From the NCBI GenBank assembly GCA_029555025.1, contig JAKPTZ010000057.1, forward strand, positions 1 to 57,791: a DNA stretch of 57,791 nt. Direction: 5' to 3'. This document shows positions 16,060-33,999 of this stretch, piece by piece (positions within the stretch are counted from its first letter, which is position 1; every line of letters begins with the position of its first letter). Source of the stretch: Deltaproteobacteria bacterium (GTDB taxonomy: Bacteria > Myxococcota_A > UBA9042 > DTJE01). Made by a program: the position numbers and the translations under genes. Under the pieces are notes generated by a model. That model was not told the origin of the DNA, did no database searches, and saw nothing but the letters and a program-made list of their open reading frames with translations.

Positions 16060-16890
16060 TCAGTCCGCTGGTGAGCACGCACCGGAGAGCAACTGAACCA
16101 GCGCGTCATCTTCAGTGATAAGCGTGTGCCGAAACCTCTCGGCGAACTCCAGATCCGTGCCGAGTGCGGCCAGTTGCGCGGAGGCGCCGACAACCATTCG
16201 CCAGTATTCGGCGTATTCCGAATCGGGGCGTCCCATCAGGTATGGAAAATCGAAGCCTGCCGCCTTCAGCCTGCGCCTCTGATCGTTCATCAGGGTGCAA
16301 AGCATGTTTTCGTGGCACAAAGCCGCCTCAATCTTGGTGTCAAGGAACGAAGCAATATCGACGACGTGTTCACCCCTGACGAAATGGCGCGTGAAATAAA
16401 AATTTCCCAGCGGAACGTGCGGCTCAAGGCCCTGGCCGGCGTGCTCCGGATGGAAGTTTGGATAGCCGGCGGCCCAGCTTGCGTCAGCCACCGCCCGGGC
16501 GACAACGTGATGATCCGGGTTCTCATCATCGTTTTCGGCGGGATCGAACGACACGATTACTTCCGGCCTGATCTCCCTGATCTTGCGGATGAAACTTTCC
16601 CGAAGGACGCCGTATGGCACGTCCATCAGTTCGCAGTCGCGAAAACCCAGATGCGAAACCCCGGCCACGCCCAGGATCGACATCGCGCCCTCGAACTCGG
16701 CGCGGTTCCTTTCGATGGCCCCCGGGATGTCGGGCCGGGTGGAGTCCTTTTCGTCGTTGGTGACCCTTACGACATGAACGCGACACCCCCGCGACGACCA
16801 TAACGCCAGGGTGCCGCCAGCAAAAAGCGTGACGTCATCGGCGTGCGGAGTAAATGCAAGCACGCATGCGGGAATGAAATCCTTTGTCAA
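16060..16890 (-). CDS. PIG-L/LmbE-family deacetylase
   Basis: I choose the TTG at 16890 because GGAGG (plus-strand 16899-16903) lies 8 nt upstream; a GTG at 16905 overlaps that site. The 276-residue product has no signal peptide. It carries the family zinc motif near the N-terminus (TPHADDVTLFAGGTL) and the second motif PDHHVVA. PIG-L/LmbE enzymes remove acetyl groups from GlcNAc-type substrates. It is the last gene of the minus-strand glycolipid-type run, 38 nt after the porin, which suggests intracellular deacetylation of an imported amino sugar; that role is inference. Confidence 0.87.
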   Translation of the reverse strand: MTKDFIPACVLAFTPHADDVTLFAGGTLALWSSRGCRVHVVRVTNDEKDSTRPDIPGAIERNRAEFEGAMSILGVAGVSHLGFRDCELMDVPYGVLRESFIRKIREIRPEVIVSFDPAENDDENPDHHVVARAVADASWAAGYPNFHPEHAGQGLEPHVPLGNFYFTRHFVRGEHVVDIASFLDTKIEAALCHENMLCTLMNDQRRRLKAAGFDFPYLMGRPDSEYAEYWRMVVGASAQLAALGTDLEFAERFRHTLITEDDALVQLLSGACSPAD

Positions 16891-16928
16891 AATCGTGTCC
16901 TCCACCCCAACAAAACAAACGGCAAGTC

Positions 16929-18479
16929 CTAGAACATCACCGCCAGCGAACTTTCCACCATGTACTGGATGTTGGTGCTGGTCATGTCGCCACGGTTCAC
17001 AAACGCGGCAGCGGCCTTGCCAGGCACCAGCAATCCGCCGATGACGTGGAACGAAAGAAGATCCTTGTACCTGATTTCAAGATCAAGATCAGCCTCGACA
17101 CCGACAAGACTGCCGCCAAGCGCGTTGTCCGGCTGAAGCGAGAATCCGGCGCCGACGATAATCGCGGGAACGAAGATATCCTTGTAGTTGTAGGCAAGCG
17201 CAAAGTCGGTCAGGCTGAACCCCGACCGCAGAAGGTTGAAGGTGTTGCGCCGCTGGCCCATGAATTCATCAATGTTGTATCCCTGGTCACGGATTTCGTC
17301 CTCGGAGAGGATTATCGTCCTGCTGCGGCTCTTGCCGGAGTAGAAGAACGCGCCGTTTGTGCCGTTGCGGTCGTACAGATCGTCGGCGGAAAGCATCATG
17401 TGGTTGAGCTGGAAGTCGAAGCCGTGCTTCTTGATCTGGGCGAACGCCTGCAGTGCCCATGCCAGAGTCGTCTCGTCGGCGAAGGCGGCACCGCTGTCTG
17501 TCTTGCCGTACTGAAGCGCCAGATCGAGGCCAAAATTGATCCACTTGTAGTCGGCAGAAATCCGCGCGCTGGCGGTCATCAGGTCGAGAGTCTGCCCGAC
17601 CGTCTCGGCGTCGTGCATCCCCATCAGGGAAATGGCGAACTTCCACTGCCTGAAAGGAATCTCCGCGGCCGCTCCATAGACGAAAGTGTCGTGCTTGAAG
17701 TTGTTGGCATCCAGCCCGATACCTTCATAGGTCTGGCCTGGAAGCTGGCCGACCGTGGCCGTGATCTTCGCCTTGCCGAAATCGCTGCCGACACTGGCGG
17801 CACCAAGCCAGTGACCCAGGAAAAGCCTGGTGGGATCCTCAAAGAACTGGTAACCGACCTTGAAATTCAACTTCTTTTCAAAGAACTTGCCTTCAACGTA
17901 CAGTTCACGGTGCGCAAGGCGGAAAGTGTCGAAGTTTCCGCTGGTGTACTGATCCGGGTTGTGACGACTCCAGAGGTTCAGGCCAAGCTCCATTTCCCAG
18001 AAGATGCGCAGATGCTTGTCCGGCGTGATGGAAATCTGTGGCTTGAAGAACGTTCCCAGCATGCCGACGGTCTGGCCCTCGACGTCGTAGTACCGGGGCG
18101 TCGAATCGAAGTCGTAGTCGTTCCGATAGACGATTACCGTCTGCAGAAGGCCATGGAACTGGACGTACTTGCCCACGTTCCATTTCTTCTTCGGTTCTTC
18201 CGGCTTTTCCGGCGTCCCGGCCGAATCGCCTGGTTCCGCCACGGCAGCCGCCTCCGGATCCGGGGAAGAAGCCGGTTCGCCGGCAGATTCAACAACTGCT
18301 TCGTCTGCCGGTTCGACCGCCTGTTCCGTTGCGGGTACAGGTTCCTCGATCCCGACCGCTTCCGGCTGGGCCTCGGGTTCCACTTCCTGCGCCACTGCAT
18401 GCGACGACAGGATCATGATGAATGCTGCTGCAATTGCTCCACGGCCAAAAGCCGATTCATGGAAAATGCGCGTGATCAT
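16929..18479 (-). CDS. Outer-membrane beta-barrel porin with Glu/Pro/Ala-rich N-terminal linker
   Basis: The ATG follows a strong GGAGG site. The 516-residue protein has a cleavable signal peptide (AAAFIMILSSHAVAQ), an acidic Pro/Ala-rich linker (about residues 31-95) and then alternating hydrophobic/aromatic strands typical of a 16- or 18-strand porin. It ends ESSLAVMF, with the terminal Phe expected for BAM recognition. It lies 15 nt downstream of the endoglycoceramidase-like gene, so it may import released oligosaccharides. The linker could reach peptidoglycan. Exact porin family unknown. Confidence 0.85.
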   Translation of the reverse strand: MITRIFHESAFGRGAIAAAFIMILSSHAVAQEVEPEAQPEAVGIEEPVPATEQAVEPADEAVVESAGEPASSPDPEAAAVAEPGDSAGTPEKPEEPKKKWNVGKYVQFHGLLQTVIVYRNDYDFDSTPRYYDVEGQTVGMLGTFFKPQISITPDKHLRIFWEMELGLNLWSRHNPDQYTSGNFDTFRLAHRELYVEGKFFEKKLNFKVGYQFFEDPTRLFLGHWLGAASVGSDFGKAKITATVGQLPGQTYEGIGLDANNFKHDTFVYGAAAEIPFRQWKFAISLMGMHDAETVGQTLDLMTASARISADYKWINFGLDLALQYGKTDSGAAFADETTLAWALQAFAQIKKHGFDFQLNHMMLSADDLYDRNGTNGAFFYSGKSRSRTIILSEDEIRDQGYNIDEFMGQRRNTFNLLRSGFSLTDFALAYNYKDIFVPAIIVGAGFSLQPDNALGGSLVGVEADLDLEIRYKDLLSFHVIGGLLVPGKAAAAFVNRGDMTSTNIQYMVESSLAVMF

Positions 18480-18494: not shown

Positions 18495-21074
18495 TTATCG
18501 GCTTATTACCTGGCCGCCCTTGACGAAGTACTTCCAGCCCTCGGTGGTCCACTCCTCGAACGGAGGCCTGATAATCACCTTGTGCTCGGCTTCCGGAAGG
18601 TCGTTCGTCGGATAGTAGTACATCACCTGGTCAGCCTGATCCCAGGCCATCCATCCGTCCGACAGCCACACATGGAATCCGTCGGGATACTGCGCGTTCG
18701 GGACATAGATGATCGTCGGCGCGTCGGTTTCCTTGCTTGAAAACACCAGTTCGAATTCGCGCCTTGGATCGGGAATGCCCTTTTCCGGGTCGTAGTAGTG
18801 GTAATCCGAGTAGAAGTGCATGGCAACCGGCTTGCCGGACAGCGCCCTCGGATACGGCCTGGACCACGCCAGTTCGCCGCGCGGCTTCTGGTCGGGACCG
18901 ATGATGCTGAAGTCTTCCTTGTTCCAGCCCTCGCCGTTTTCGTAAGTGTTGCGGATCGAGTAGCACCACAGGAAGCTCGACACGAACATCTTCTCGTACG
19001 ACTCGTAGTAGTTATCCAGGAAGTGCGCCGACAGCGAGTAATTGTTGCGGATCGACTGGAGGATGCCCTTTTCCTCCCAGTCCTCACCCTTGTACTTGTA
19101 ATTCCAGTAGGTGCCGAATTCACCGAAGACGACCGGAATGTTCCCGAGCGACTCCTTCGAAGAGGAAGCCGACGCAATCAGGTCGTTGGTGTAGTCGCGG
19201 TACTGAATCTCGTCCACCGAGAAATCGCGTTCAGGCATGTTGAACCCGAGCCACGGGTAGATGTCCGGGTAGTAGTGAGGCGCATAGACGGCCTGCTTGA
19301 TGCCGGCCGGCTTCGTCATGAACGTGCCGTTGATGCCGCCCGATCCGGTCGGCTCGAGCCAGATGATCGCGTTCTCATCGACCTTCTGGATCGCGTTCCC
19401 GACGCGCTCGAAGTACGGCTGCAGCAGGAAGTAGTCGAATGCATCCAGGACGCCCAGGGCGCCGAAAAGATCGACGTCGCCATAGCCCCACTTGACCCTG
19501 GTTTCCCATTCGGCGTCCGGCGGAAGAACTTCCAGGAACTTCAGAAGATAGAAGACCTTGGTTCCAAGCTGATCCCGGGCCGGATCACGGCACAGATCGA
19601 TGCAGGTCCCGACCTGGTTCGAACACAGCTTGTTGCAGGCCGTCTTCTGGGTGTTGCACTGCTCGGTGCAGTTGGACTTCTGCTCCTGGCATACCGCCTT
19701 GCAGTTGTCGTCGGCGCCGCACATGGCATCGCAGTCGGTTCCGCACTGTGCGTTGCAGTCCGTATTGCAGACCGTTCCGCAGGTGTTGGCGCAGGAATCG
19801 TCGCAGTTGTCGCCCGGCTCGAACGGCAAATCGATTGCCAGCGGGGATCCGTTCACAAGCAGTTCGTTCGGGAGCAGCAGATTCAGGACTTCCTTGACCG
19901 CAGCTTCATTGCCGACTTCGAAGAACAGGGCAAGGGCGGCAAAGACATAAAGCGAGGCGGCCGGTTCGTTCATCAGGTCGTAACCGATGATGTTCGGATA
20001 CTTGACAGCCCTCTTCGCCACCTCGACCCAGGCCCGCTCGAGCGACCCCTGGAAGTACTCCTTCATGTCCATCGCGTCTTCGCTGACTTCGTCGTCGTTG
20101 ATGTTCTTGACAGTGCCATCCGGCTCGATCCTGACATCCGGAAACACCGAGTCGCCTGCGAACATGGCGGCATAGCAACGCTGGATGTCGATGCTGAAGA
20201 TCATGTTGTCCCACCAGCCGGACAGCGGCAGCATGCCGGCCGTCTCGGACCGGTCGAACGGCTGGGCCGGCAGCTTGGCGCCGATTTCCTCGACAAGTCC
20301 CGCTGGCAGGTCGAATCCCAGGATCCCGGCGACCAGTTCGACGGTGTAGAGGAAATCGCTGCCCGGAATGCCGTCATTATCCTTGGCCATTGCGCCAAGC
20401 AGGTAAGTAGTGCCCCAGTTCGGGCTGTCGAACTTCTTGTAAGGCATGCACGCCTTCGTCGCCCAGGTTGGCGCGCCGTCTCCAACTACCTGGTTGTTGT
20501 GCGGCGGCAGCAGCGAGTACAGCATGTTTTCGATGTCCCCGCGGACGCCGGGCGCCTGGTCATTGAACTTGGCGACCATGTCGCGCCCCCACAGGTTCTC
20601 GTGCATGTTGATAAGCACGTATATGCCGTGGTCGTTGGCCTTGCTGATGATTGCCTCGAAGTAGTCCAGAAAGTCCTTGTCCGGAGTGTTCCTGTCATCC
20701 GGGAAGACCGACTCCCACAGGAAAAGCAGACGGACGGAGTTGAAACCGAGCGCACGGATCTGACCAAACCACTTGTCTGCCTCGTCCAGCGGGAACGGAC
20801 GGCCGACGAACGTGAAATCGCGGCCGTTGTCCAGCGGTACGTCAAGCATCACGGGCAGTTTGGCATCGCCGCTGACGTTGATGCCGCGGAAATGGACATA
20901 GCGGCCTTCCTGATCCTTGAACCAGGTCCGCTCGGTGACGATGCGCGAAACCGACTTGTCGAAAGCCGGCTCGTCGCTGGAACACCCGGCCGCCAGCATG
21001 CCGGCAAGCACAGCCACGACGGGCACCGCCACGGCGCCAATCCGCCATTTCGATCCTGTCCGGAACTTCTTCAT
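18495..21074 (-). CDS. Endoglycoceramidase-like GH5 lipoprotein with Cys-rich insertion
   Basis: An 859-residue lipoprotein (lipobox GMLAAGC) starting after GGAGGAAGACC. The GH5 barrel carries FNSVRLLFLWESVFP, INMHENLW, GDGAPTWA, the acid/base in YDLMNEP, YAPHYYPD and the nucleophile in VVFGEFG. The C-terminal part resembles the beta-sandwich of rhodococcal endoglycoceramidases (RPYPRALSG, YVPNAQYPDG). That family cleaves the glycan from ceramide in glycosphingolipids. Catalytic residues are intact. Unusual: residues 420-495 are a 16-Cys insertion with CxxxC spacing. It sits between a GH5 paralog and a porin, in a run with a ceramidase-like gene. Confidence 0.88.
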   Translation of the reverse strand: MKKFRTGSKWRIGAVAVPVVAVLAGMLAAGCSSDEPAFDKSVSRIVTERTWFKDQEGRYVHFRGINVSGDAKLPVMLDVPLDNGRDFTFVGRPFPLDEADKWFGQIRALGFNSVRLLFLWESVFPDDRNTPDKDFLDYFEAIISKANDHGIYVLINMHENLWGRDMVAKFNDQAPGVRGDIENMLYSLLPPHNNQVVGDGAPTWATKACMPYKKFDSPNWGTTYLLGAMAKDNDGIPGSDFLYTVELVAGILGFDLPAGLVEEIGAKLPAQPFDRSETAGMLPLSGWWDNMIFSIDIQRCYAAMFAGDSVFPDVRIEPDGTVKNINDDEVSEDAMDMKEYFQGSLERAWVEVAKRAVKYPNIIGYDLMNEPAASLYVFAALALFFEVGNEAAVKEVLNLLLPNELLVNGSPLAIDLPFEPGDNCDDSCANTCGTVCNTDCNAQCGTDCDAMCGADDNCKAVCQEQKSNCTEQCNTQKTACNKLCSNQVGTCIDLCRDPARDQLGTKVFYLLKFLEVLPPDAEWETRVKWGYGDVDLFGALGVLDAFDYFLLQPYFERVGNAIQKVDENAIIWLEPTGSGGINGTFMTKPAGIKQAVYAPHYYPDIYPWLGFNMPERDFSVDEIQYRDYTNDLIASASSSKESLGNIPVVFGEFGTYWNYKYKGEDWEEKGILQSIRNNYSLSAHFLDNYYESYEKMFVSSFLWCYSIRNTYENGEGWNKEDFSIIGPDQKPRGELAWSRPYPRALSGKPVAMHFYSDYHYYDPEKGIPDPRREFELVFSSKETDAPTIIYVPNAQYPDGFHVWLSDGWMAWDQADQVMYYYPTNDLPEAEHKVIIRPPFEEWTTEGWKYFVKGGQVISR

Positions 21075-21131: not shown

Positions 21132-22733
21132 TCACTCGGGTTGCGACTGCAAATCAGCCTTGAGTACGTCCAGCAGGGTCTGATTGACTTCCAGCTCAAG
21201 CGAACCGTAGGACGCGAACTTCTGCCTGACGGTCTCCTCGCTGTCGATAAACAGGTCGGGACGGTCGAACTCGCCGACAAGACGGCTCTTCACGCCCCAG
21301 CTTGACTTGTCGCCCCAGAGATCCGCGGCCACCGGATCCTGGACGTCCTTATAAGCCCACAGCGACCAGGACCAGCCGTATTTTCCCATCCACTCGACGA
21401 TGTATTCGACCGCCTCGTAAGCCCACGGCTCATCGAAGATGCCCGAGAAGCTGCCGATGAAATACGGTACGTTCCTGGTCTCCTGGGCGGTGCGGAAGAA
21501 GAAGTCGTAAAGATCGACCGTGCCCTTGAATGTGTCAAAATTCCTGGCCGACCATTCGAAGATGTGGGTCGAGAACACGACGTTGGTCCATCCGTATTCG
21601 GCAGGGTCGGCCATTCCGTCCATTCCCTTGAAGCCGTCGTGGATCACCAGCAGGTGATCGTCGCCAAGCGCGCGAATGGCCTTGACCAGCTTGTCGTACA
21701 TATCGTCGCGGGCCTTGCGCGACGGGGCGCCCATCGGTTCTGCAAGCAGGCTGTATGCCGCCACGACGTTCCTGTCGTGGAACCTGGCGGACATCTCTTC
21801 CCACAGATCCACCGTCATGTCCTGGTACATCTGGGTTGAATAAAGCAGCGCCGGGCCCGAGTAATCGTTCTGTCCGCCAGGGCATTCCTGGATGTCCAGA
21901 ACCGCATAGACTCCCCACTTCTCGCACCAGTCCAGCAAGGCATGGATCCGTGCGAACGCATCCTCGTTCCAGACCAGTTCCGTCGGCTGCGCCAGGTGGC
22001 TGCCCTTCGTCAGCGTGCGGTATCCAATCGGCACGCGCACCAGGTTGAACCCCTGCCCGGCGAGCCACTCGATGTCCCTTTCCTGAATCCAGGCGCCCTG
22101 ATAGGTGTCCAGCAGGGAGTCCCTGGCCTCGATTCCGAAACGTTCCTCAAGCTTGGTGTAGATCGGCAGATCCGAGTCGTCGTATATCGCGGGCAGGTAC
22201 TTTTCCAGTTCCGTGAAATAGGCTTCAACCGTGGCCGTGTCGGCAACTTCGCCAAGCTCGGTGCGCAGCAGTTCCAGCCATGCGTCAGCACCTATGCTGC
22301 CACCGCTGCCATCGCTGACGCCGACCATTCCGGCGACGATCTGCGGACCGATCGCGACAAGTACCGGTCGAACGATATCCTCGAGTTCCATCTCCACGGC
22401 GACCTTCCAGGCACGCGCCTGGGCCGAGTAATCGACAAGTGTCAGCCACGTTTCATGGTACAGGTATCCGCCAAGGTTCACGCCTTTCAGGACAACGACG
22501 TTTCCGTCCTCGTCAACGATGTTCATCCCTTCGGCGCGAAGGCGCGACATGCCGGATTCGACCACGTCCGGTGCGGTGTCGCCCGCGACATCCGGGACAA
22601 CGTCGGGGGAAGTCGTATCCGAACCCGAGTCCATCATGACGTCGTCGCCGGGGATGTCCCCGCTGTGCTGGTTGTCGTCGCCGCAACCGGTCGTCACGGC
22701 CAGGAAAGCGATGGCAATCAGTACACTCCTCAT
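21132..22733 (-). CDS. GH5 (exo-glucanase-like) lipoprotein, probable pseudoenzyme
   Basis: The ATG at 22733 with an AAGGA site gives 533 residues, a signal peptide (AFLAVTTGC) and an Asp-rich stalk. The fold matches exo-beta-1,3-glucanase-type GH5 (KGVNLGGYLYHETWL, FNLVRVPIGYR). Key positions have changed: the usual DLHGAPGSQNG reads DIQECPGGQND, NEP reads AEP, and the nucleophile motif GEF reads GSF (FIGSFSG, Ser codon AGC). The acid/base Glu remains. It may bind rather than cleave glycans. It starts 4 nt after the GH84 gene stop. Confidence 0.85.
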   Translation of the reverse strand: MRSVLIAIAFLAVTTGCGDDNQHSGDIPGDDVMMDSGSDTTSPDVVPDVAGDTAPDVVESGMSRLRAEGMNIVDEDGNVVVLKGVNLGGYLYHETWLTLVDYSAQARAWKVAVEMELEDIVRPVLVAIGPQIVAGMVGVSDGSGGSIGADAWLELLRTELGEVADTATVEAYFTELEKYLPAIYDDSDLPIYTKLEERFGIEARDSLLDTYQGAWIQERDIEWLAGQGFNLVRVPIGYRTLTKGSHLAQPTELVWNEDAFARIHALLDWCEKWGVYAVLDIQECPGGQNDYSGPALLYSTQMYQDMTVDLWEEMSARFHDRNVVAAYSLLAEPMGAPSRKARDDMYDKLVKAIRALGDDHLLVIHDGFKGMDGMADPAEYGWTNVVFSTHIFEWSARNFDTFKGTVDLYDFFFRTAQETRNVPYFIGSFSGIFDEPWAYEAVEYIVEWMGKYGWSWSLWAYKDVQDPVAADLWGDKSSWGVKSRLVGEFDRPDLFIDSEETVRQKFASYGSLELEVNQTLLDVLKADLQSQPE

Positions 22734-22737: not shown

Positions 22738-24921
22738 TCATTCCTTTCCCCTTCCGGGGTCTTCGCACACCACTTCGAACTCCATGAAGCCGAGGCCGTC
22801 GGCGGCCACGGCAATAACCACGCCTGCAAACATACCCGCGTGCGGCGGCAGCCATCCGATGGCGCCTTCCCTCACCGTCGCTCCGGGAAGCCCGAACACC
22901 GACACGGACGAGTCCATGGCGGACACCGGAACTGACCACTCGGAACCGGCGGTGCATGGGGGGACATCGAAAGCGACTTCGACAAGGCGCCCGGTTCCGA
23001 CTTTAACAACGGCCTTTGAAGCGGCCTCGAGCAGGTCCTCGATTTCGCCCTCGCCAAAGGTGAACCTGCAACTGTTGGACTCATACATGGAAACGGCGGC
23101 CTGCTCCAGGTAAGCGGCGGCGTTGCCGCCGGACGCCTTCTGAAGCAGCGCCTTCAGCACCAGCAGCCCGGTCTCGCCCTCGAGACGCGCCTTTTCGAGC
23201 GGATAATAGAGTTCATCGACTATGTCAGGCGCCAGATCCGAGTGGTGAACCTCGGACCAGGCAACCACCATGCGCGCCAGATGCGGCGCAAGTTCCAGGG
23301 CGTCACCGAGCCAACCGTCTCCGCCTTCCTTGAGCGAGTTCGCCAGCGAATCGGCCAGCCTGGCGACCGGCCGGCTTCCAGGCATCAACTGCGCATTTCC
23401 GTCGAACAGGGACATCAAATAGCGAACCAGTTCCCGGGAGCGCTCCGAATCCGAATCGAACGAAGCCCCGGAAGTCGCTTCCAGCCCGGCTGAAAAATCG
23501 ATTGCGGCATCCGGATCGTACCCGTCCGGGTTCCGCATGAAATCGGCGAAGGTGCCCATGGTCAACCGGCTCAGCCCGCCCTGTATCGACGGATTGTGCA
23601 TGATTCCGGTGACCGCGTCGGCAAGCGCCGGCTCACGGCCTGTATAAGTTGACAGCATTGTGCGGCCCAGGAATCCGTCGCCGCCGTCGTTTGCCCAGAA
23701 GTTGTCCCATATAACCGGCTTGCGGCCGGAAAACGATCGGAAATTGTCCATGTCGGCCGCGGTCATCACGGCATCGGACGTATGCGGTCCGGTCCAGAGG
23801 ATCTGGACGTCAGAATCCAGCGCAGACAAGGCCGAAAGATACGCCGCGCCATCCCCGCTGGCCTCCCCGAGGCTCTCGATACGCTCGTCCGAATACACCG
23901 TCGGGCAGAACGCCATGACGACATCCGGATTGATCCGGCGCAGATCATCAAGCAGCCTGTTGACGACGGCCGCATGGGCCTGGCCCATCTCGCCACCGAT
24001 CGGGTGCGCGGTCTCGAACTCGATGTCGTCGGCCAGCAGGGTCACGCTGGTGGCGCCGCGCAGGATGAACGCCTCGATTTTCGACTTCAGGATCTGGTAA
24101 TCGTCATCGGTCGTGGTGTCGAAGTCGATGAAGGGACTGATTCCAAAGGAGAAAGCCACCTCCCTGTCCGCGGCGTAGGAAATCAGCTCGCCGAAGAGTT
24201 CAAGGTCCGTTTCGGGGTACTGATCCCGCCACTCGGCCCTGTGGAACGGATCCCACTTCGGGCAGTAGATGTAGCTGCCCATGCCGGTTCGGGACAGCAG
24301 ATCGACCATGCGCCTGCGTTCTTCCCAGGACCACGGCACGCCGTAGAAGCCCTCGATGACCCCGCTCCACGGCCTGTCCGACACCCGGACATCGACCGGG
24401 GCCGGCGCCGGGGCGGCGACTGCCGCGGCAGGAACCATGGCGACAAGCGTCAGCGAGGAAACAGCCGCGTTTTCCGAAGCGGTCAAGGTGAGTTCGACAC
24501 AGCCGGCCTCACGGCCGGACAAGTCCAGCGCGACCGAGATGTCCGGCCACTCGACCACAGTGGCCGTGGATCCGCAGGCACCCATCAGCGCCACCGAAAC
24601 CGAATCCACGCCTCCGGACGCCTGGATTGACAGTGAACCCAGTTCCACCGGGCGCTGAAGCCACGGCTGGATGTCCAGCGTCAGCACCGTCTGCCCCGCA
24701 GGAACCTTCCAGGAGGTGCCGGGATTGCCGTCACGGATGGTTGCCGGACCGTCCTGCGCCTCGATCGGCCAGGGGAATGCCTCGTGCAGCGTATCGCTTG
24801 CGGCAATGCGGACGTGCGGAACGATATCTGCCATGACAGGCTTGACTGGCTCGTCCCCGCATCCCGCAACCATCGCACAGGCGGCCAGAAAGGCCGCCGC
24901 CAGTGTCGTCCTGCTGCGCAT
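22738..24921 (-). CDS. GH84-like beta-N-acetylhexosaminidase lipoprotein
   Basis: The ATG at 24921 starts a 727-residue lipoprotein (lipobox AMVAGC). A beta-sandwich (about 30-190) precedes the GH84 barrel. The barrel is recognised by GVIEGFYGVPWSWEERRRM, YIYCPKWDPFHR and the paired catalytic aspartates in LLADDIEFE. GH84 enzymes remove beta-linked GlcNAc, including O-GlcNAc, with substrate assistance. A helical region follows. In this operon it probably trims HexNAc from glycolipid or glycoprotein glycans outside the cell. It lies 13 nt after the dehydrogenase gene and 4 nt before the next start. Confidence 0.88.
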   Translation of the reverse strand: MRSRTTLAAAFLAACAMVAGCGDEPVKPVMADIVPHVRIAASDTLHEAFPWPIEAQDGPATIRDGNPGTSWKVPAGQTVLTLDIQPWLQRPVELGSLSIQASGGVDSVSVALMGACGSTATVVEWPDISVALDLSGREAGCVELTLTASENAAVSSLTLVAMVPAAAVAAPAPAPVDVRVSDRPWSGVIEGFYGVPWSWEERRRMVDLLSRTGMGSYIYCPKWDPFHRAEWRDQYPETDLELFGELISYAADREVAFSFGISPFIDFDTTTDDDYQILKSKIEAFILRGATSVTLLADDIEFETAHPIGGEMGQAHAAVVNRLLDDLRRINPDVVMAFCPTVYSDERIESLGEASGDGAAYLSALSALDSDVQILWTGPHTSDAVMTAADMDNFRSFSGRKPVIWDNFWANDGGDGFLGRTMLSTYTGREPALADAVTGIMHNPSIQGGLSRLTMGTFADFMRNPDGYDPDAAIDFSAGLEATSGASFDSDSERSRELVRYLMSLFDGNAQLMPGSRPVARLADSLANSLKEGGDGWLGDALELAPHLARMVVAWSEVHHSDLAPDIVDELYYPLEKARLEGETGLLVLKALLQKASGGNAAAYLEQAAVSMYESNSCRFTFGEGEIEDLLEAASKAVVKVGTGRLVEVAFDVPPCTAGSEWSVPVSAMDSSVSVFGLPGATVREGAIGWLPPHAGMFAGVVIAVAADGLGFMEFEVVCEDPGRGKE

Positions 24922-26001: not shown

Positions 26002-27636
26002 CTATTCGGCAGAGTCTTCACCAAAGAATGCGGCCTCGCTGGCCGCAATGTCCTCAAAAAGGGCGGCGTAACCGGCCATCAGGGTGCCGGCGACGTTGGG
26101 GCTTGCCGAATTGCGCTGATGCTCGTGGTTCGGCCTGTCCTCCTGATACCTTGGATAGATGTAGCCAATCTCCGTGTCGGAAAGGCAGGCGACGAAGCGG
26201 TTCGGCGTGTCGATGAACTGCTCGAGGTAAGGCTCGCGCTCGGCGTCGGCGAACTCGCCCGGCACCGGCTCGGGGTCGGGATAGACCCCCAGGACCAGTT
26301 CCGGGGTCAACTCGCCGGGGACGTTGACCCACGTAAGCAGTTCGCCGAACTTGACGACGCTTACGGGAACATCGACGCAGCCCATGAAGCCGCAGGGAGC
26401 GCCTTCGTCCCCGCTTTCCCCGTACAGGTAATCGATGAATCCGTTGATCAGGCCCGACTCGATTCCGGCCCAGAAGTCGAAATTCTCCAGCTTCATCGAC
26501 GGCCGCGACTCGGCCGCGAACATGTATTCGCACGACGGCGCCGGCGGATCGACAAGGGCCTGGTTGACGATGTCGCCATAGGCGTTGCCGACCTGCTCGG
26601 TCAACCACATGCCGGTGTTGTCCCAGTCCATTACGGGCGTCGCCATCAGGCCCAACGCGCCGGCAAAGAAGATGGCCATGCCGCCCTGCACTTCCTCGAC
26701 CTTCTGGCGCAGGTAGTGCGGGAAATCGCTGGAAACTTTCATGTTGTCCGGACCGCCTGACTCCGGATGGTTGGCAATGCTGACAAGCGTCCCGATGACG
26801 TCGCCGTCCTCCGCGACGCCCTGGATGATGCTGATGTTCCTGTCGATGACGACCGGCACGTCGATGTCGCGAACCAGGGAATCGGGCTGCTCGGCGCTGA
26901 CCACGCGGATGCCGGCCGGAACCATCGAGTCAAGCGCCTCGACTGCCGCCTGAGCGGTCTGCTCGTCGATAAAATCAAGATATTCGAGCGGCATGAGATC
27001 CCAGACACCCTGGGTGTCCGGCCCCTGATGCGTGTGCGTGGTGGCCCAGGTGACGTGGCTGTCCTCAAGATTGAACTGCGGGCGCAGTTCCTTGATTCTC
27101 GCGACGATGCGGTCGTAATGGGAAAGCCCCATGCCAATCGAGTCGGTCGCGCAGAACAGGTAGGCCTGGCCGGTGCTCTCGATTGCCATGCAACGGGACC
27201 AGATCGGATCGTGGATACCCTGGGCCTGCCGCGGGCCAAAACCCGCGATGTAAGTCGGGTCGTACTCGTCATTGTCGTTGGTGTCGGTAAAGGCCTCGCC
27301 ATCATCACGCCAGTTGTTGCCGTTGGTGTCCTCGAACGGTTCCACGACCGGGCTGACATCCCTCTTGCCGACGCCGATCTTCATTACGCACGGCGGAACA
27401 ACGTGAACTTCCGGGGCGGCGTCGATGGCGAGATCGGTGCCGCCTTCGTCCGGGACTGCCAGGTCCAGGCCGGAATCCGTCGGTTCAATTTCGTTATCCA
27501 TCACGTCCGAAACGGTGTCACCAATCGTGTCGGGAGAATCCTGGCCGGAAGAACAACCTGCCGCAAACGAAACCATGATCGCGAAGAGCGACATACGCAC
27601 AACGCCCGATCGGATAAATCCCTTTTGATTCAGCAT
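26002..27636 (-). CDS. Neutral/alkaline ceramidase-like lipoprotein
   Basis: A 544-residue lipoprotein (lipobox SFAAGC) with a GAGG site before the ATG and an Asp-rich stalk to about residue 80. The catalytic part matches the N-terminal domain of neutral ceramidases: VGKRDVSP, GPRQAQGIHDPIWSRCMA, the zinc motif TTHTHQGPD and a third His in SIANHPESGG. These enzymes split ceramide into sphingosine and fatty acid. The bacterial C-terminal immunoglobulin-like domain is short or absent. It is the first gene of the minus-strand run and diverges from tetR across an inverted repeat. Confidence 0.83.
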   Translation of the reverse strand: MLNQKGFIRSGVVRMSLFAIMVSFAAGCSSGQDSPDTIGDTVSDVMDNEIEPTDSGLDLAVPDEGGTDLAIDAAPEVHVVPPCVMKIGVGKRDVSPVVEPFEDTNGNNWRDDGEAFTDTNDNDEYDPTYIAGFGPRQAQGIHDPIWSRCMAIESTGQAYLFCATDSIGMGLSHYDRIVARIKELRPQFNLEDSHVTWATTHTHQGPDTQGVWDLMPLEYLDFIDEQTAQAAVEALDSMVPAGIRVVSAEQPDSLVRDIDVPVVIDRNISIIQGVAEDGDVIGTLVSIANHPESGGPDNMKVSSDFPHYLRQKVEEVQGGMAIFFAGALGLMATPVMDWDNTGMWLTEQVGNAYGDIVNQALVDPPAPSCEYMFAAESRPSMKLENFDFWAGIESGLINGFIDYLYGESGDEGAPCGFMGCVDVPVSVVKFGELLTWVNVPGELTPELVLGVYPDPEPVPGEFADAEREPYLEQFIDTPNRFVACLSDTEIGYIYPRYQEDRPNHEHQRNSASPNVAGTLMAGYAALFEDIAASEAAFFGEDSAE

Positions 27637-27670: not shown

Positions 27671-27719
27671 GGCTGTCATAATCTGTAACTTGACAGCCCC
27701 TGACATCAATCTCTATCAT
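27671..27719. promoter_or_regulatory. TetR operator candidate overlapping the tetR promoter
   Basis: GGCTGTCA (27671-27678), a 12-nt spacer and TGACAGCC (27691-27698) form a perfect 8-bp-arm inverted repeat between divergent genes. The right arm overlaps a perfect -35, TTGACA (27690-27695), which is followed after 18 bp by TATCAT (27714-27719), reading toward tetR. A repressor bound here would silence tetR and could also control the divergent ceramidase-like operon. Binding by this TetR protein is inference from position and symmetry. Confidence 0.65.
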
Positions 27720-27774: not shown

Positions 27775-28383
27775 TTGGAAAAGATATCTCTCAGGGAAAG
27801 AAAAAAGACCAAGACCTGGGAAAGCCTTGTGAAGATTTCCACCCGGCTTTTCATTGAACAGGGATACGACAACACGACGGTCGATCAGATTGTCGAAAAG
27901 GCCGAAGTCTCCCAGCGAACATTTTTCCGTTACTTCCCCAGCAAGGAAGCGGTGATGTTCAGGGACTATGAAAAACGCGAGCAGGGATTGCTTCGCTATC
28001 TGAAGGAAGACGAGGACGGAATCGAGCCTTATCAGCGAATCAAGAACGCCCTGCTTGGAATGGCCAATGCATTCGATCAGGATCGCGAGACCATGCTTGC
28101 CGAATACAAGATAGTCATGGGTTCAAAGCACCTGATCGCACTGGATATCGAGCAGGACAGCCGGCTTGAGCGGCACGTTCACGCGGCCCTGCGGGAATTT
28201 CGTGGCAGGCCGTTCCTTTGCGACCGTGACGCCGAACTTGTTGGCGGCGCGATTTTCGGCTCGATTCGATCGGCGCTTGGTTACTGGTTCGAGGGTGGCT
28301 GCAAGGCCGACCTGGCTGAAATCAGCGGGCAATGTCTGAAGATTGTCGATGTTCTCGCCGCTGGTTTCCCCGGTCGAATCTGA
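27775..28383 (+). CDS. TetR-family transcriptional regulator
   Basis: The TTG at 27775 follows AAAGGA by 8 nt. The 202-residue protein has the TetR helix-turn-helix at about 12-58 (ISTRLFIEQGYDNTTVDQIV, VSQRTFFRYFPSKEAV) and a ligand-binding C-terminal helical domain. The FFRYF variant is common among TetR regulators of lipid or acyl-CoA genes, but the ligand cannot be assigned. It is divergent from the glycolipid-type operon and is followed at 28 nt by a secreted-protein gene, so it probably regulates both sides. Confidence 0.92.
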   Translation: MEKISLRERKKTKTWESLVKISTRLFIEQGYDNTTVDQIVEKAEVSQRTFFRYFPSKEAVMFRDYEKREQGLLRYLKEDEDGIEPYQRIKNALLGMANAFDQDRETMLAEYKIVMGSKHLIALDIEQDSRLERHVHAALREFRGRPFLCDRDAELVGGAIFGSIRSALGYWFEGGCKADLAEISGQCLKIVDVLAAGFPGRI

Positions 28384-28411: not shown

Positions 28412-30091
28412 ATGAACGGTTTCCGGAACCGGCTGGGTTGTTTCGCCCTTTCCCTGGCCATCCCGATGGTTGCTCTCGGTTGCGGCGACGACTGCGACTG
28501 CCCGGACGGCGGCGCGCAATGTGCCGATGCCGTGGTGGCCGACACTACGTCCGAACTGCCGCAGGACAACGGGATGGAACTGGCGCCGGACGTTCTGGCC
28601 GACCTTCGGGAAGCAGATGCGGTCACAGACGCTGCGTTGGATACACCCGACTCCGCGGACGTCGTCCCGGATACCGGTTCGATGGAACCGGTCTATTGGA
28701 CTGCCGGGGCCACGAAGACCATCGAGTTCGACAACTTCGTGACTGTTGGCAGGAAAGAATTCTTCGGAATCGGCATGCACGCAAGCCCGGGCAAATCCTA
28801 CGACGGCGTTACCGGACCGGGCGAATGTGACCGGGACACCGGGCGGGGATATGTCGATATCAACATCGGCAAAACCCGCGCAGGTGCCGCCGCCGGTGCC
28901 AACTTCGTCTATCTGTGGGGCTACAACGAACGAACGACGGAGATACTCGACGTTACACCAAGGTTCCACGGAATCTTCCACCGCAACTACGGCACGTCAC
29001 CGGCTCCGGAGGACGACGTGGTGCCGATCATCTACAACGCATTCGGCGAGTCTGACATGGACGGCTACTCCGAGGAACGTATCGCCGAGATGAGCAGCGA
29101 ATTCGGGGAATTCATCACCAGGTCAGGAAAATACTCGATCGAAAGCATGCCGAACCTGCCGCCGATCGAACAGGTCGGCCACATGTCCTGGCACCCGACA
29201 TTCAGGATGCGCGGGGGCGGGGACGGCAAGGGCGAGGTTCTTCCCGACTGGCAGGTGGCCGAATTCGCGAAGACGACGAACATGATGATTGGCGACGCAT
29301 ACGCCTATGTATCGAACCGCTGGGACACCAACGACCCGGACGAGGCCCTGACCGCCATCATCACGGGTCAGATTGGCGATATCGGTGAAGGCTACGACCA
29401 CTGGATCGAGACCGACGACGAGGCCCATCGAAGCTACTTCGACTCCGGATTCACGCTTGCCGAGTCGCTTGTCAGGAACAGGAATCCCGACGCGGTCGTA
29501 TGGATGTGGCTGCAGGGATACGCGTTCGGCAACAGTATCAAGGAAGCCGAGTGCGAGGGCGAATACTCGGACTCCTGGGCCGCCGGCACTTTCCCGCCAC
29601 TTGATTACCTTATCAAGGAAACCCTGTCGGTAATCGCTGCCGGAGCGACTGGAATCGTATTTTTCGGATATCCATCGACCAGCGGCCCGGAAGCCGAAAT
29701 CATGCACACCATCTTCCGCGGCCTCAGCTTCCCGGAGGTGTACGAACCGGCGCTCCTCAGCCCCAGGCTTGACATGGGCGTCAACACCACGTTCATGGGA
29801 GAGGAAGGCTACGACGGAAGGGGACGGGCACACCTGGCAGTCAAGTGGGACGAGGCAGGCAGGCAGGCATTCATAATCGGTGCAAATCCCGGTGCACGGG
29901 CAACCACGGTGGAACTGGAATTTCCGTGGTCCGTGGCCAAGGTTGAACTCCTTGACTGGAACGTTCCCAGGTTCAGGCCGACCGAACGTGTCGAGGTGCG
30001 GAACCGCAAACTGCTCTGGACCTTCGATCGCGACGAAGGGATGCTGATGAGGGTCACGCCACTTGCGGCACCGGCCGGCAGTGACGATTGA
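28412..30091 (+). CDS. Secreted lipoprotein of unknown function, barrel-like core
   Basis: ATG codons at 28409 and 28412 follow AGGAG; 28412 has the better spacing. The 559-residue product has a signal peptide and lipobox (MVALGC), a Cys cluster, then an Asp-rich stalk to about residue 85. The core has alternating strand/helix text with Trp-rich segments (NFVYLWGYNERT, AVVWMWLQGYAFG, GATGIVFFGYPS) and ends in a beta-rich part (VELLDWNVPRFRP). That layout resembles a TIM-barrel glycoside hydrolase with a C-terminal sandwich, but I recognise no family signature. It is in the tetR transcription unit. Confidence 0.75.
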   Translation: MNGFRNRLGCFALSLAIPMVALGCGDDCDCPDGGAQCADAVVADTTSELPQDNGMELAPDVLADLREADAVTDAALDTPDSADVVPDTGSMEPVYWTAGATKTIEFDNFVTVGRKEFFGIGMHASPGKSYDGVTGPGECDRDTGRGYVDINIGKTRAGAAAGANFVYLWGYNERTTEILDVTPRFHGIFHRNYGTSPAPEDDVVPIIYNAFGESDMDGYSEERIAEMSSEFGEFITRSGKYSIESMPNLPPIEQVGHMSWHPTFRMRGGGDGKGEVLPDWQVAEFAKTTNMMIGDAYAYVSNRWDTNDPDEALTAIITGQIGDIGEGYDHWIETDDEAHRSYFDSGFTLAESLVRNRNPDAVVWMWLQGYAFGNSIKEAECEGEYSDSWAAGTFPPLDYLIKETLSVIAAGATGIVFFGYPSTSGPEAEIMHTIFRGLSFPEVYEPALLSPRLDMGVNTTFMGEEGYDGRGRAHLAVKWDEAGRQAFIIGANPGARATTVELEFPWSVAKVELLDWNVPRFRPTERVEVRNRKLLWTFDRDEGMLMRVTPLAAPAGSDD

Positions 30092-30128: not shown

Positions 30129-31577
30129 ATGAAAAAGCTGGCGACGATTCTTGCGATTGCGGCCGCGCTGACGATGCTTGCCTGCGGGGGCGGCTCGCAG
30201 GGCACCGACGAAACCACCCCGGGGGACGTGCCTGGGGATGACGCGGCGACTGACGAGGGCTCCGGCGATGCAATCAACGACGCATCACCCGAAGATTTGC
30301 CACCGGTTGTTCCCGACAGCTTCCAGGTCGGTTACGCCGAACTCGACATCACCCCTCCCGTTGGAACCATCCTTGGCGGCTACGGCGTACCCGCGATGAA
30401 CCGAGTCACGGAAGGAACCCACGACCCGCTGATGGCCCAGGCCGCCCTGTTCACAAACAACGCCGGTCAGGCCCTTCTGCTGATCAGCGCCGACCTGGCG
30501 GGATACATGTGGGACTTCGGCGACTGGGGTCCCGGGATCAAGGTTCTGCGCCAGTCCATCGTCGACGCCCTGGCGCCGACCATGGCCATTACGCCGGAAC
30601 AGATCGTTATTGCCAGCAGCCACAGCCACGGCGCATCCGATCTGATGGGCTTCTCGCAGGAAATCGACGAAGGCCCGGACAAGGAACTCCTGGCCACAAC
30701 GATCACCCAGTTCACTTCACTGGCCCAGGCGGCCGCCGCCGCACTGAAGCCGGCAACGGTTCTTTACGGAAAGACGAACCTCGAAGGCATTTCGGCCAGG
30801 GACAAGGACTGCTCGCCAGTGCTCGACACCGAGGTCGGCATCATCCAGGCGCAAGACGGACAGGATAAGGTGATTGTGACAATCGCCAACTTCGCGAAGC
30901 ACCCGACCATCGCGCCCGAGTCGAACCGCCTGGCCACGGCCGATTTCATATGGGGCTACCGCGAGGAGATGAAGAAGGCTACCGACGCCCCGGCCATGTA
31001 CTTCCAGGGATTTGAAGCAGCGGTTCATGGCAGGTACAGTTTCTATGACGAGGAAGATTTCTGGGACAAGGTTTATGAAATCGGGAAGAACCTGGCAGAC
31101 GCGGTCCTGGCGGTTTCGGGAAGCCTGACCCCGGCGGGGGATTTCGGCATCCAAAGCCGCGAAGCCACGTATTCCTGCGTCGGCCGCGAGTCGTTCATGG
31201 TGGACGCCTACACTTACATGGGATTGCCGAAGCGCTTCATCGACGTCCAGCAGGACGGCACGCTCCTTGTCCGCGAGATTCCGGTCTCCTGGCACCGCCT
31301 GGGCAACGCGGAGTTCGTTGCCTTCCCCGGGGAGCCGTCGCCGGAGTACGGCGGGATGGCCAAGGAACGGATGTCCAGTTCCTTCAAGTTCGCCCTTGGA
31401 CTGGCAAACGACGCGACCGGCTACATGGTGGAACCGCAGTCGTTGGCAAATGACACGACAGGCCAGCTTGAAGGCTATGAACTGAAGATGGGCCTGGGCC
31501 CGGACGCCGGCCCGAGCGCGTGGGACGCCCTTCAAGGCCTTGGCTGGTTCGACGGTGGCTGGCAGCAGGAACCGTGA
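30129..31577 (+). CDS. Second neutral ceramidase-like lipoprotein
   Basis: A 482-residue lipoprotein (lipobox TMLACGGG) with an acidic stalk. The core begins FQVGYAELDITPPVGTILGG, typical of the ceramidase N-terminal domain. It retains the zinc motif ASSHSHGASD and the third His in NFAKHPTIAPES. It is diverged from the 26002-27636 copy and has a distinct substrate pocket, so it may act on another acyl-sphingoid or lack ceramidase activity; this family includes many uncharacterised hydrolases. An AAGGA site lies upstream and it starts 37 nt after the preceding gene. Confidence 0.8.
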   Translation: MKKLATILAIAAALTMLACGGGSQGTDETTPGDVPGDDAATDEGSGDAINDASPEDLPPVVPDSFQVGYAELDITPPVGTILGGYGVPAMNRVTEGTHDPLMAQAALFTNNAGQALLLISADLAGYMWDFGDWGPGIKVLRQSIVDALAPTMAITPEQIVIASSHSHGASDLMGFSQEIDEGPDKELLATTITQFTSLAQAAAAALKPATVLYGKTNLEGISARDKDCSPVLDTEVGIIQAQDGQDKVIVTIANFAKHPTIAPESNRLATADFIWGYREEMKKATDAPAMYFQGFEAAVHGRYSFYDEEDFWDKVYEIGKNLADAVLAVSGSLTPAGDFGIQSREATYSCVGRESFMVDAYTYMGLPKRFIDVQQDGTLLVREIPVSWHRLGNAEFVAFPGEPSPEYGGMAKERMSSSFKFALGLANDATGYMVEPQSLANDTTGQLEGYELKMGLGPDAGPSAWDALQGLGWFDGGWQQEP

Positions 31578-31674: not shown

Positions 31675-31740
31675 GTGGCAGTTAACCGCTCCGGTAAGAC
31701 CGCGTGCCGTTCGTGCCGGACCACAGAAAAAGGGGAACAG

Positions 31741-33999
31741 ATGAAAAATCACAACGCCAGGGCGATGGTGGCAGCAGCAATTCTTATGATGATGACGGCG
31801 GGATGCGGAAGTTCGAATGCCGTGCAGGACGCGGCCCCCGATGCCGGCCCGGATATCGCCGACCCGCTTCAGGACGCGGCGGCAGACGACGCGCCGGACG
31901 TTGCGAATGACCCCGGGGATTCGCCGGATGCCACCACCGATGCCGATGCAGCAACTGGCCCCGACGACGTGGTCGATGTGCGTGAGGATGCGATTCCGGA
32001 CGCGGATTCCGGTCTGGAAGACACCGGGTTCCAGTGGGCCGGGGGATGCGAGCCGCGTCAGGCTTACCCGACATGGACGGTAATTGGCGACACCACATTC
32101 AAGCGGGGACCGCTGATCCAGATGTCCGACCGGGACACCGTCACCGTCGTCTTCAGAACCGAGAATCCAACCGAAGACGAAGGCTGTGTCGATTACACGT
32201 GGGACGGGACGCCAAGGACCGCATGCGGCCAGCCCGACGTCAACGGCCAGTACGAAATCACCATTGAAGGACTTCCCGCGGCGACCGAAATACACTACTC
32301 GGCAAGGGCGGGTGACCTGAAGACCACGGATCTGACCTTCCGGACGATGCCCGACCGGCCTGTGGAAATGAAGTTCGCCGTCTTCGCCGACAGTCATGCG
32401 AACGAGGCCAACCTTAAGAGATTTTCCGAACTGGCTCTTGCGGAAGGCGTCGATTTCGTCCTCGGCAACGGTGACCTTTCCGGCGAAGGCCTGCCGGAGG
32501 AATATGACCTGACCTTCCGGGGATTCCGCGACCTGGGCACACGCGTGAACATCTGGACGACCCTTGGAAACCACGACGAAAAGAACGCCGAGGGATATTT
32601 CGAGGCATTTGCCCTGCCGCAGGGAAACGTCGATGAAATCGATACCGGCTACGGCGAAGGCTGGTGGTCGCGCAGGCTTGGGAACGTATGGATTGGCGGC
32701 GGATGGATCCGTGATTTCTACCTTTCGACTTCTGACTCGGACTGGGGAGAAGTCGGCTGGTACCGCAGGCAGTTTGAGACAAATGAATTCAAGACCGCCC
32801 AGTGGAAACTGTTCTTCATTCACCAGCCGGCGTACAGCCTGCAGTGGGACGACACCTGCGTGTTCGACGGGGACGACTGCCTTAAGGTCGCAATGATTCC
32901 ATTGCTCAGCGAATTCGGGTTCCAGGCAAGTTTTCACGGTCACATGCACGGCATCGAGTACGGCGAGCAGGACGGGCTTCACATGTTCACAATCGGCGGC
33001 CTTTGCGATTGCGGCATGGACATGGACAACTGCCAGCCCACCGACATCTTTCCGGATCCGTACCACCGGATTTACGGCATTCCGACTTTTGCAATCGTCG
33101 AATCGAGATGCGATGGCCTGAAGATCCGGGCGGTTGACCTGGACGGCAACGACGTGATGAGCATCACAATCCCGGAAATTCCCATCCGGTACGACGAAAA
33201 CATTCGCCTGATGAGCTTCAACCTGAGGATGCCGTTCGACTCGGAGCCCGGCAAGAAGTGGGAAGAAAGGCAGCAGCCAGCGCTGAACATCATCAACGAA
33301 TTCAACCCCGACATCATGGTTGTTCAGGAGGGTTACCAGTTCACCCAGGACTTCATCAAGGAAAACATCCCGCGCCTGGACTGGATCGGTGAAAACCGAA
33401 GTGGAAGCATCGTGGATGAGTACTGCGCCATCTTCTTTGACAAGTCGAAATATGAGCTTATTGAAACGAAGACGCTGGCGCTGAGCGAAACCCCGGAAGT
33501 CATCGGCACGAAGTTCGACGAGGAAGACCAGTTGTATCCGCGCATCGTGACCTGGGGCCACTTCCGGAGGATTGCGGATCGCTTCGAATTCGACGTCTTT
33601 TCGACCCACTGGGATCACACTGGCGAAGAAGGCATCCGGGAAAAGATGGCCGTTGTCACGCTGCAACAGATGGCTTCCCTGGCCAACGGCCGTCCGGTGC
33701 TCCTGGCGGGCGACTTCAACTGCGGGTTCCAGTCGCTTCCGTGGAACGTCATGACGGGCGCCGCGGAATACCAGGGAGTGACCGGCAGCATGATCGATAC
33801 CTGGGTTGAACTCGGGTTGCCCGAGGAAGGTACGTACCACGCTTTTACTGGCGTCACCTCCGGAAACCGGATCGACTGGGTCATGCACAACGGCGGCTTC
33901 AAGGCCGTGTCGGCCGAAATCCTGAAGTCCAGCTATGACGGCATATATCCGTCAGATCATTTCCCGATCGGTGCCGAATTCAGGATCACGAAGCCTTGA
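31741..33999 (+). CDS. Lipoprotein fusing metallophosphoesterase and EEP phosphodiesterase domains
   Basis: The ATG at 31741 follows AGGGGA. The 752-residue lipoprotein (lipobox MMTAGC) has a long Asp/Ala-rich stalk, a purple-acid-phosphatase-type N-terminal sandwich, and a calcineurin-like domain (AVFADSHAN, GNGDLSGEG, LGNHDEKNA, HGHMHGIEYG). From about residue 490 comes an endonuclease/exonuclease/phosphatase domain (MSFNLRMPF, IMVVQEGYQ, LLAGDFNC, NRIDWVMH, YPSDHFPIG). Both sets of catalytic residues look complete. EEP enzymes include sphingomyelinases and nucleases; lipid headgroup removal fits the neighbours but is unproven. Confidence 0.87.
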   Translation: MKNHNARAMVAAAILMMMTAGCGSSNAVQDAAPDAGPDIADPLQDAAADDAPDVANDPGDSPDATTDADAATGPDDVVDVREDAIPDADSGLEDTGFQWAGGCEPRQAYPTWTVIGDTTFKRGPLIQMSDRDTVTVVFRTENPTEDEGCVDYTWDGTPRTACGQPDVNGQYEITIEGLPAATEIHYSARAGDLKTTDLTFRTMPDRPVEMKFAVFADSHANEANLKRFSELALAEGVDFVLGNGDLSGEGLPEEYDLTFRGFRDLGTRVNIWTTLGNHDEKNAEGYFEAFALPQGNVDEIDTGYGEGWWSRRLGNVWIGGGWIRDFYLSTSDSDWGEVGWYRRQFETNEFKTAQWKLFFIHQPAYSLQWDDTCVFDGDDCLKVAMIPLLSEFGFQASFHGHMHGIEYGEQDGLHMFTIGGLCDCGMDMDNCQPTDIFPDPYHRIYGIPTFAIVESRCDGLKIRAVDLDGNDVMSITIPEIPIRYDENIRLMSFNLRMPFDSEPGKKWEERQQPALNIINEFNPDIMVVQEGYQFTQDFIKENIPRLDWIGENRSGSIVDEYCAIFFDKSKYELIETKTLALSETPEVIGTKFDEEDQLYPRIVTWGHFRRIADRFEFDVFSTHWDHTGEEGIREKMAVVTLQQMASLANGRPVLLAGDFNCGFQSLPWNVMTGAAEYQGVTGSMIDTWVELGLPEEGTYHAFTGVTSGNRIDWVMHNGGFKAVSAEILKSSYDGIYPSDHFPIGAEFRITKP

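Follow-up and report, generated by a model that had tools for sequence, protein, structure and literature searches.

A conserved TetR-linked set of glycosidase and ceramidase-like genes in uncultured Myxococcota, with a possible role in glycolipid breakdown

Introduction

Do eleven neighbouring genes of an uncultured member of the Myxococcota form one system and, if so, what does that system break down? The genes lie in a stretch of 57,791 nucleotides (hereafter, the window) which is one whole contig (JAKPTZ010000057.1; G000:C16) of a 3.49 Mb metagenome-assembled genome (MAG) of a Deltaproteobacteria bacterium (GCA_029555025.1). Seven of them, on the minus strand, encode: (i) a PIG-L family de-N-acetylase; (ii) an outer-membrane barrel; (iii) a GH5 lipoprotein (GH5egc); (iv) a second GH5 lipoprotein, without catalytic nucleophile (GH5deg); (v) a GH84 lipoprotein; (vi) an enzyme resembling sn-glycerol-1-phosphate (G1P) dehydrogenase (G1PDH-like); and (vii) a ceramidase-like lipoprotein (cer1). 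They diverge from the genes of a TetR-family regulator, of lipo9 (a lipoprotein that belongs to a new family), of cer2 (ceramidase-like, also a lipoprotein) and of MPE-EEP (a metallophosphoesterase fusion). A preliminary description of this DNA had read all of these genes as one TetR-linked system acting on glycosphingolipids. That the genes form one such system is well supported by gene neighbourhood, phylogenetic profile, a fusion of cer1 with GH5deg, and a shared candidate operator. The glycosphingolipid substrate fared less well, as discussed below.

Evidence for one gene system

Four proteins (G1PDH-like, lipo9, cer1 and GH84) were searched across 52 genomes of the class and their strong homologues were counted. 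The G1PDH-like enzyme has such a homologue in 12/52 genomes, lipo9 in 11/52, and cer1 and GH84 in 10/52 each. Their pairwise overlaps amount to 9-11 genomes, and all four occur together in eight. In the phylum as a whole (331 genomes), all 11 genomes with lipo9 fall inside the 12 with the G1PDH-like enzyme. Hypergeometric values for these co-occurrences range from 1e-7 to 1e-19. Within the window's own family, nine genomes hold members of the set and four hold none of the four proteins, a genome of the same genus being among the latter.

The genes are also kept together. In one relative (G012:C8), G1PDH, lipo9, GH5, cer1, GH5deg, a further GH5 and GH84 all lie in one 16 kb stretch; a similar stretch is found in G008:C48, and partial clusters, some of them pairs, occur in G005, G011, G003, G009 and G020. 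Recurrent members of the relatives' clusters are tetR, PIG-L, GH5deg, GH5 and the porin. TetR homologues (86-88 bits) adjoin G1PDH in three relatives (G003, G008, G009), while a PIG-L homologue (181-184 bits) lies directly 3' of G1PDH in G003 and G009, where the run TetR-G1PDH-PIGL is present. In these same two genomes, which belong to one genus, cer1 and GH5deg form a single open reading frame of ~1000 aa, matched by each of the two profiles at >860 bits. The preliminary description had proposed conservation of gene order in relatives as a check; the set as such is conserved across genera and families. A chance assembly of genes is ruled out by the phylogenetic profile together with the neighbourhood. 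For the core genes, then, the membership proposed earlier stands; MPE-EEP is tied to the set only weakly, through an EEP homologue that in one relative (G003) lies near a ceramidase-like gene preceded by the candidate operator.

Other genes were seen beside the set. A GH92 alpha-mannosidase goes with it in G005, G011 and G012 (one genus), joined in two of them by an MFS_2 transporter, which is cut off in G012. A GH31 gene lies near cer1 in G005. Finally, a lipoprotein family of ~600-700 aa (L160, 18107-19999; L156, 1366-3501), with no Pfam match and GH31/GH36-like by eye, has a gene close to either cer1 or G1PDH in three of the genomes.

The candidate operator

One palindrome, TGGCA-N5-TGCCA, usually in the form TGGCAC-N3-GTGCCA, is shared by the set's intergenic regions in G003, G008, G009 and G012. 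These genomes contain 5, 19, 3 and 3 copies, respectively. Three sites are independent, in that they were not used in motif discovery: (i) in G012, directly upstream of an orthologue of the window's cer2 (68% identity); (ii) in G003, before a ceramidase-like gene; and (iii) in G009, before a GH5deg paralogue. If 20 target genes of 300 bases each are allowed for, which is generous, their joint probability is ~2e-7. Since G008, with 19 sites, and G005, with 11, have many copies away from the set, some of them within genes, the palindrome alone is not specific.

The divergent promoter of the window carries an inverted repeat (Table 1) which differs from the relatives' palindrome and is a possible TetR operator. 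The window holds no clear copy of that palindrome, so that control of its own set by TetR is an inference. The G009 paralogue behind the candidate operator (L204, 8739-9425 in G009:C4; ~230 aa) lacks the middle of the barrel.

The ceramidase-like proteins and GH5deg

No Pfam family matches cer1 itself; 7/10 of its aligned homologues match PF04734 at E<=0.01 (best 7.3e-8), and a cer1 profile finds the neutral ceramidase 2zws at 5.6e-10. For cer2, the match to PF04734 scores 23.4 bits, under the curated cut-off of 32.1 bits. By profile, both proteins appear to be remote members of the neutral-ceramidase superfamily. The candidate zinc ligands H201/H203, H290, E442 and Y492 are invariant in the cer1 alignment, of which only the two His regions align confidently to 2zws.

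GH5deg matches the GH5 family in Pfam at 3.6e-22. Compared with solved GH5s, its nucleophile motif has changed from GEF to GSF (Glu to Ser) and NEP has become AEP in 10/10 aligned homologues; further homologues from across the phylum are nucleophile-less in every case whose motif was recovered. Because many columns are invariant, the protein seems to be under selection and not decaying. The loss of catalytic residues in GH5 modules has precedent (PMC3526467); the literature searched yielded no conserved pseudo-GH5 family joined to a ceramidase-like domain. Lone GH5deg genes, also nucleophile-less, were seen in other Myxococcota families (L184-L199), so the protein exists beyond this system.

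It is conceivable, albeit unlikely, that cer1 and GH5deg together act as a glycan-guided N-deacylase, in which a dead glycosidase would serve as a sugar reader steering a serine-less zinc amidase onto intact glycolipids, inside a new TetR regulon that would also feed a G1P-type product into metabolism.

GH5egc and its barrel partner

GH5egc combines a GH5 domain (PF00150, 2.4e-24) with Glyco_hydro_5_C (PF18564, 2e-9), and it matches the sterylglucosidase SglA (8exd) at 4.5e-22. Its sequence is closer to sterylglucosidases than to endoglycoceramidase II, and it scores 49 bits against the Endoglycoceramidase I model NF051847, below the NCBIfam cut-off of 700 bits. The catalytic motifs NEP and GEFG/TEFG are kept in 23/23 homologues, E369 and E651 being invariant. 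The comparison with the sugar contacts of Sgl1 (K47, H142, D144, N269, Y453, W570 and E587; PMC8497620) gives K71, H157, N368, Y601, W702 and E719 as invariant equivalents, that of Y453 by position only; the counterpart of D144 is N159 in the window (Asp to Asn). In the sterylglucosidase Sgl1, mutation of His142-Asp144 impairs activity (PMC8497620).

A cysteine-rich insert occupies ~residues 420-495 of GH5egc, within the GH5 domain, and also occurs in the L016/L036 homologue. Relatives were seen in archaeal MAG contigs (L107 and L109, Heimdallarchaeota; L108, Methanotrichaceae) and in Calescibacteriota (L091/L099, Calescibacterium), where loci of the Calescibacterium type mostly have a barrel neighbour.

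The barrel was modelled by AF2 with 18 strands (pLDDT 71); its best PDB match is AlgE (4azl, 1e-18), followed by the OprD family. The GH5egc family is many-copy, and the partnership with a porin proposed earlier recurs: a barrel is adjacent in 16/21 loci of one sample and in most of the ~78 loci of a larger one, some of whose porin calls are shadow frames. The genes next to the pair in many loci of the larger sample are an SSS symporter (25 loci), galactokinase (13 loci) and, in several cases, galE or galT. Loci of this kind are spread over several deep branches of the GH5 tree. With ~0.3 galactokinase neighbours expected by chance (estimated with 20 kb per locus and a genome of 5 Mb), the GH5-barrel module of these lineages probably serves to supply galactose or a galactoside. 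Such loci seem to be a galactose-acquisition system of Myxococcota, apparently undescribed. Ten of them (L041, L042, L073, L051, L096, L083, L061, L068, L075, L077) were seen with the GH5-barrel pair, SSS symporter, galE/galT/galK and UDP-sugar pyrophosphorylase.

These galactose-operon cousins have HQD or HHD where Sgl1 has His142-Asp144, whereas the window's branch has HEN. There is no galactokinase neighbour in this branch of the GH5 tree, so the sugar of the window's GH5egc may differ from that of its cousins. The window genome's own galactokinase lies on another contig, at a locus with neither GH5 nor barrel. GH5deg is found with GH5s of no fewer than three distinct branches, and the loci that contain G1PDH draw their GH5s from different branches, which argues that the association came about on more than one occasion.

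The remaining members

The GH84 protein scores 229 bits against a cut-off of 25 (NAGidase, PF07555), carries the Asp-Asp pair in LLADDIEF, and matches NagJ/5diy at 1e-37 to 1e-41. PIG-L scores 84 bits against a curated cut-off of 28 and reaches none of the BshB, MshB or Mca equivalog cut-offs. The G1PDH-like enzyme matches the G1PDH model at 1.3e-32, with 113 bits, below the NCBIfam cut-off of 413; its GGGS NAD motif and metal ligands D163, H243 and H259 are invariant. No GGGP synthase match above cut-off was found in 15 genomes, which argues against a role in archaeal-type lipid synthesis, and that role was rejected. Neither lipo9 nor its 10 homologues have a significant Pfam match. The AF2 model of lipo9 has a TIM barrel followed by a beta-sandwich and is poor (pLDDT 51), so its Foldseek matches to TIM-barrel glycosidases are weak. 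MPE-EEP combines Metallophos and Exo_endo_phos domains in Pfam.

Proposed function and alternative explanations

At a probability of roughly 55%, we read the set as a TetR-controlled regulon by which an amide-bearing glycolipid would be broken down outside the cell and taken up. What the analysis shows is the genes, families, residues, co-occurrence, colocalisation, the fusion and the shared palindrome; the substrates and the direction of flow are all inferred. Surface or periplasmic lipoproteins would dismantle the lipid: GH84 would take off beta-linked N-acetylglucosamine (GlcNAc), GH5egc would cleave the sugar-lipid bond, and cer1 and cer2, as zinc hydrolases of the neutral-ceramidase superfamily, would cleave the acyl amide. 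GH5deg, incapable of GH5 catalysis, might hold the glycan and bring cer1 (to which it is fused in some species) to the substrate, lipo9 acting probably as a further glycosidase. Freed sugar would reach the periplasm through the barrel. Two cytoplasmic steps would follow: PIG-L would de-N-acetylate a GlcNAc product, and the G1PDH-like enzyme would oxidise a small polyol phosphate or a compound related to it. A compound of the pathway would relieve TetR repression. If the kinship with ceramidases extends to function, the lipid would be a sphingolipid; if the hints from galactose and G1P are more telling, it would be a glycerolipid.

Several points weigh against this reading. Kinship is left out of the co-occurrence P values, which makes the on/off pattern inside one family the better argument, and part of the set-bearing MAGs are fragmented. 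The relatives' palindrome was recognised post hoc and by eye; in the window it has only 2-mismatch matches (e.g. 27691-27705), at about the chance rate, and neither G005 nor G011 has it at the set. Of the four genomes that do, G003 and G009 are of one genus. The ceramidase kinship of cer1 and cer2 is remote, so that "glycosphingolipid" as a substrate depends on distant homology. Neutral ceramidases need a serine and none is invariant across the 10 cer1 homologues, which makes a ceramidase-type serine mechanism doubtful; the serine region of the Pseudomonas ceramidase (PaCD) could not be aligned to cer1. The galactokinase-linked cousins point to galactose, and the window's GH5 differs from them at one sugar-contact residue. 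Lastly, the G1PDH-like step has no obvious place in sphingolipid breakdown and fits no textbook glycosphingolipid route. Given the nearness of GH5egc to sterylglucosidases, its galactose-linked cousins, the remote cer1/cer2 kinship and the lack of an invariant serine in cer1, the glycosphingolipid substrate of the preliminary description is no more than a candidate.

A glycoglycerolipid, such as an algal or cyanobacterial galactolipid or a Gram-positive glycolipid or lipoteichoic-acid anchor, is a possible though less probable substrate; the G1PDH-like enzyme would then handle G1P, and cer1 and cer2 would be lipid or other hydrolases. In its favour are the GH5-barrel pairs that several deep clades of GH5 have beside SSS symporter, galE, galT and galK genes, the origin of many MAGs in lakes and sediments, and an intact G1PDH active site which, with GGGP synthase absent above cut-off, leaves room for a catabolic use of G1P. 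Still, the window's GH5 clade lacks the galK linkage, galK of this genome being on another contig, and the three ceramidase-superfamily genes in the relatives' regulon suit an amide better. A Chlamydomonas galactolipid hydrolase was set aside as a precedent: it belongs to GH1, not GH5.

The set could also serve the use of N-glycans, mucin or polysaccharides in general, its ceramidase-like proteins acting on some other amide or ester. GH84, GH92 and the MFS_2 transporter with the set in G005, G011 and G012, the GH31 gene of G005 and the lack of an invariant serine in cer1 would fit such a locus; but GH5egc appears to keep all Sgl1 sugar contacts but one, and has a GH5_C domain typical of glycolipid-active GH5s, and we consider a non-lipid substrate quite unlikely. 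Myxococcota are known sphingolipid makers, the degradative members are all lipoproteins and two enzymes are cytoplasmic, as would suit a system that remodels the lipids of its own cell envelope. Against this, presence is patchy (the nearest, same-genus genome lacks the set), an outer-membrane barrel is dedicated to the set, neither GH84 nor GH92 is an enzyme of envelope remodelling, and no GGGP synthase was found above cut-off in the 15 genomes; remodelling is thus highly improbable.

If the glycolipid-foraging reading is true, the set marks these environmental Myxococcota as consumers of membrane glycolipids. In any case, it offers a testable regulon in uncultured bacteria, a ceramidase-linked pseudo-GH5 and a new lipoprotein family, while the galactose-wired GH5-barrel pair predicts, across the wider phylum, what those GH5s release.

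Gene arrangement in the window

The position, order and spacing of the seven-gene minus-strand run and of the four genes diverging from it were all found again as first described (Table 1). With lipoprotein-type starts, two of them shifted by hand with the translations as a guide, the gaps of the minus run are ~4 (GH5deg/GH84), 13 (GH84/G1PDH), 20, 23, 15 and 57 bases. On the plus side, cer1 and tetR diverge across 138 bases, followed by gaps of 28 (tetR-lipo9), 37 (lipo9-cer2) and 163 bases (cer2-MPE-EEP). Lipobox-like signals are present in 7/11 proteins (GH5egc, GH5deg, GH84, cer1, lipo9, cer2 and MPE-EEP); PIG-L, the G1PDH-like enzyme and TetR are without a lipoprotein signal, and the start of the barrel is signal-like.

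Elsewhere in the window, near-identical 78-base tandem repeats (34744-35188) encode PPRHVMPDRPDPRRERPVVRPERNM. Two tRNAs called by ARAGORN (14411-14539) overlap each other within the coding DMNQPDTNQPD repeat of a lipoprotein gene and are almost surely artefacts.

Table 1. Features of the gene set, with positions in the window
Feature	Position	Strand	Evidence
PIG-L family de-N-acetylase, cytoplasmic	16060..16905	-	PF02585 1.4e-23
18-stranded outer-membrane barrel ("porin")	16929..18479	-	AF2 model and PDB matches; GH5 neighbour in most related loci
GH5egc, lipoprotein GH5 of endoglycoceramidase/sterylglucosidase type, with GH5_C domain and Cys-rich insert	18495..21074	-	PF00150 and PF18564
GH5deg, lipoprotein GH5 without catalytic nucleophile	21132..22733	-	GSF for GEF; LAEP for NEP
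GH84 beta-N-acetylglucosaminidase lipoprotein	22738..24921	-	PF07555 9.1e-68
G1PDH-like cytoplasmic enzyme	24935..25981	-	Profile vs 5fb3 2e-32
cer1, ceramidase-superfamily lipoprotein	26002..27636	-	Profile vs 2zws 5.6e-10
Inverted repeat GGCTGTCAT-N10-TTGACAGCC in the divergent promoter, candidate TetR operator of the window	27671..27698	.	Relatives' palindrome matched here with 2 mismatches (27691-27705), not above chance
TetR-family regulator	27775..28383	+	PF00440 (TetR_N) 3.5e-15
lipo9, new-family lipoprotein with a probable TIM barrel and beta-sandwich	28412..30091	+	Weak Foldseek matches
cer2, second ceramidase-superfamily lipoprotein	30129..31577	+	PF04734 2.7e-5 (below cut-off)
MPE-EEP, metallophosphoesterase and EEP-family lipoprotein; membership uncertain	31741..33999	+	PF00149 1.1e-14, PF03372 1.1e-11

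Comparison with known systems

To our knowledge, gene systems with which bacteria take glycolipids apart have rarely been described. The preliminary description knew of no complete operon of this kind, and the literature searched likewise gave no gene system of this make-up. We are not aware of glycosidases, an outer-membrane barrel, G1PDH or PIG-L being part of the Pseudomonas SphR-CerN sphingolipid response. That response is alike in having a regulator that governs a secreted ceramidase, and differs in that the regulator is an AraC-type activator, instead of a TetR (PMC5150637).

With the endoglycoceramidases of GH5_27/28/29 and the glucosylceramidases and sterylglucosidases of GH5_12, GH5egc shares the GH5 fold, the Glu pair, GH5_C and, it appears, the Lys/His/Asn/Tyr/Trp/Glu sugar contacts (PMC3526467, PMC8497620). 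It differs from the solved glycolipid-active GH5s in matching them at ~35-81 bits only, in its Cys-rich insert and in the barrel gene that is usually adjacent; unlike Sgl1, its clade has Asn for Asp144 and Glu for the neighbouring Gln. The putative N-terminal zinc-site region of cer1 aligns with neutral ceramidases (PaCD/CerN, human nCDase), from which cer1 departs in being short, strongly diverged, without invariant serine and, in some species, fused to a GH5 module. The G1PDH-like enzyme has the fold, NAD motif and three metal ligands of bacterial AraM and archaeal G1P dehydrogenase, but scores ~115 bits by profile and occurs in genomes where no GGGP synthase was found above cut-off. As in polysaccharide utilisation loci and CAZyme gene clusters, co-regulated surface hydrolases are joined by an outer-membrane uptake protein and cytoplasmic enzymes; unlike those loci, the set has no SusC/D, its barrel is AlgE/OprD-like, its likely substrate is a glycolipid and it includes a pseudo-GH5. 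The system thus combines known enzyme families in a new way and includes one new family (lipo9) and a conserved pseudoenzyme (GH5deg).

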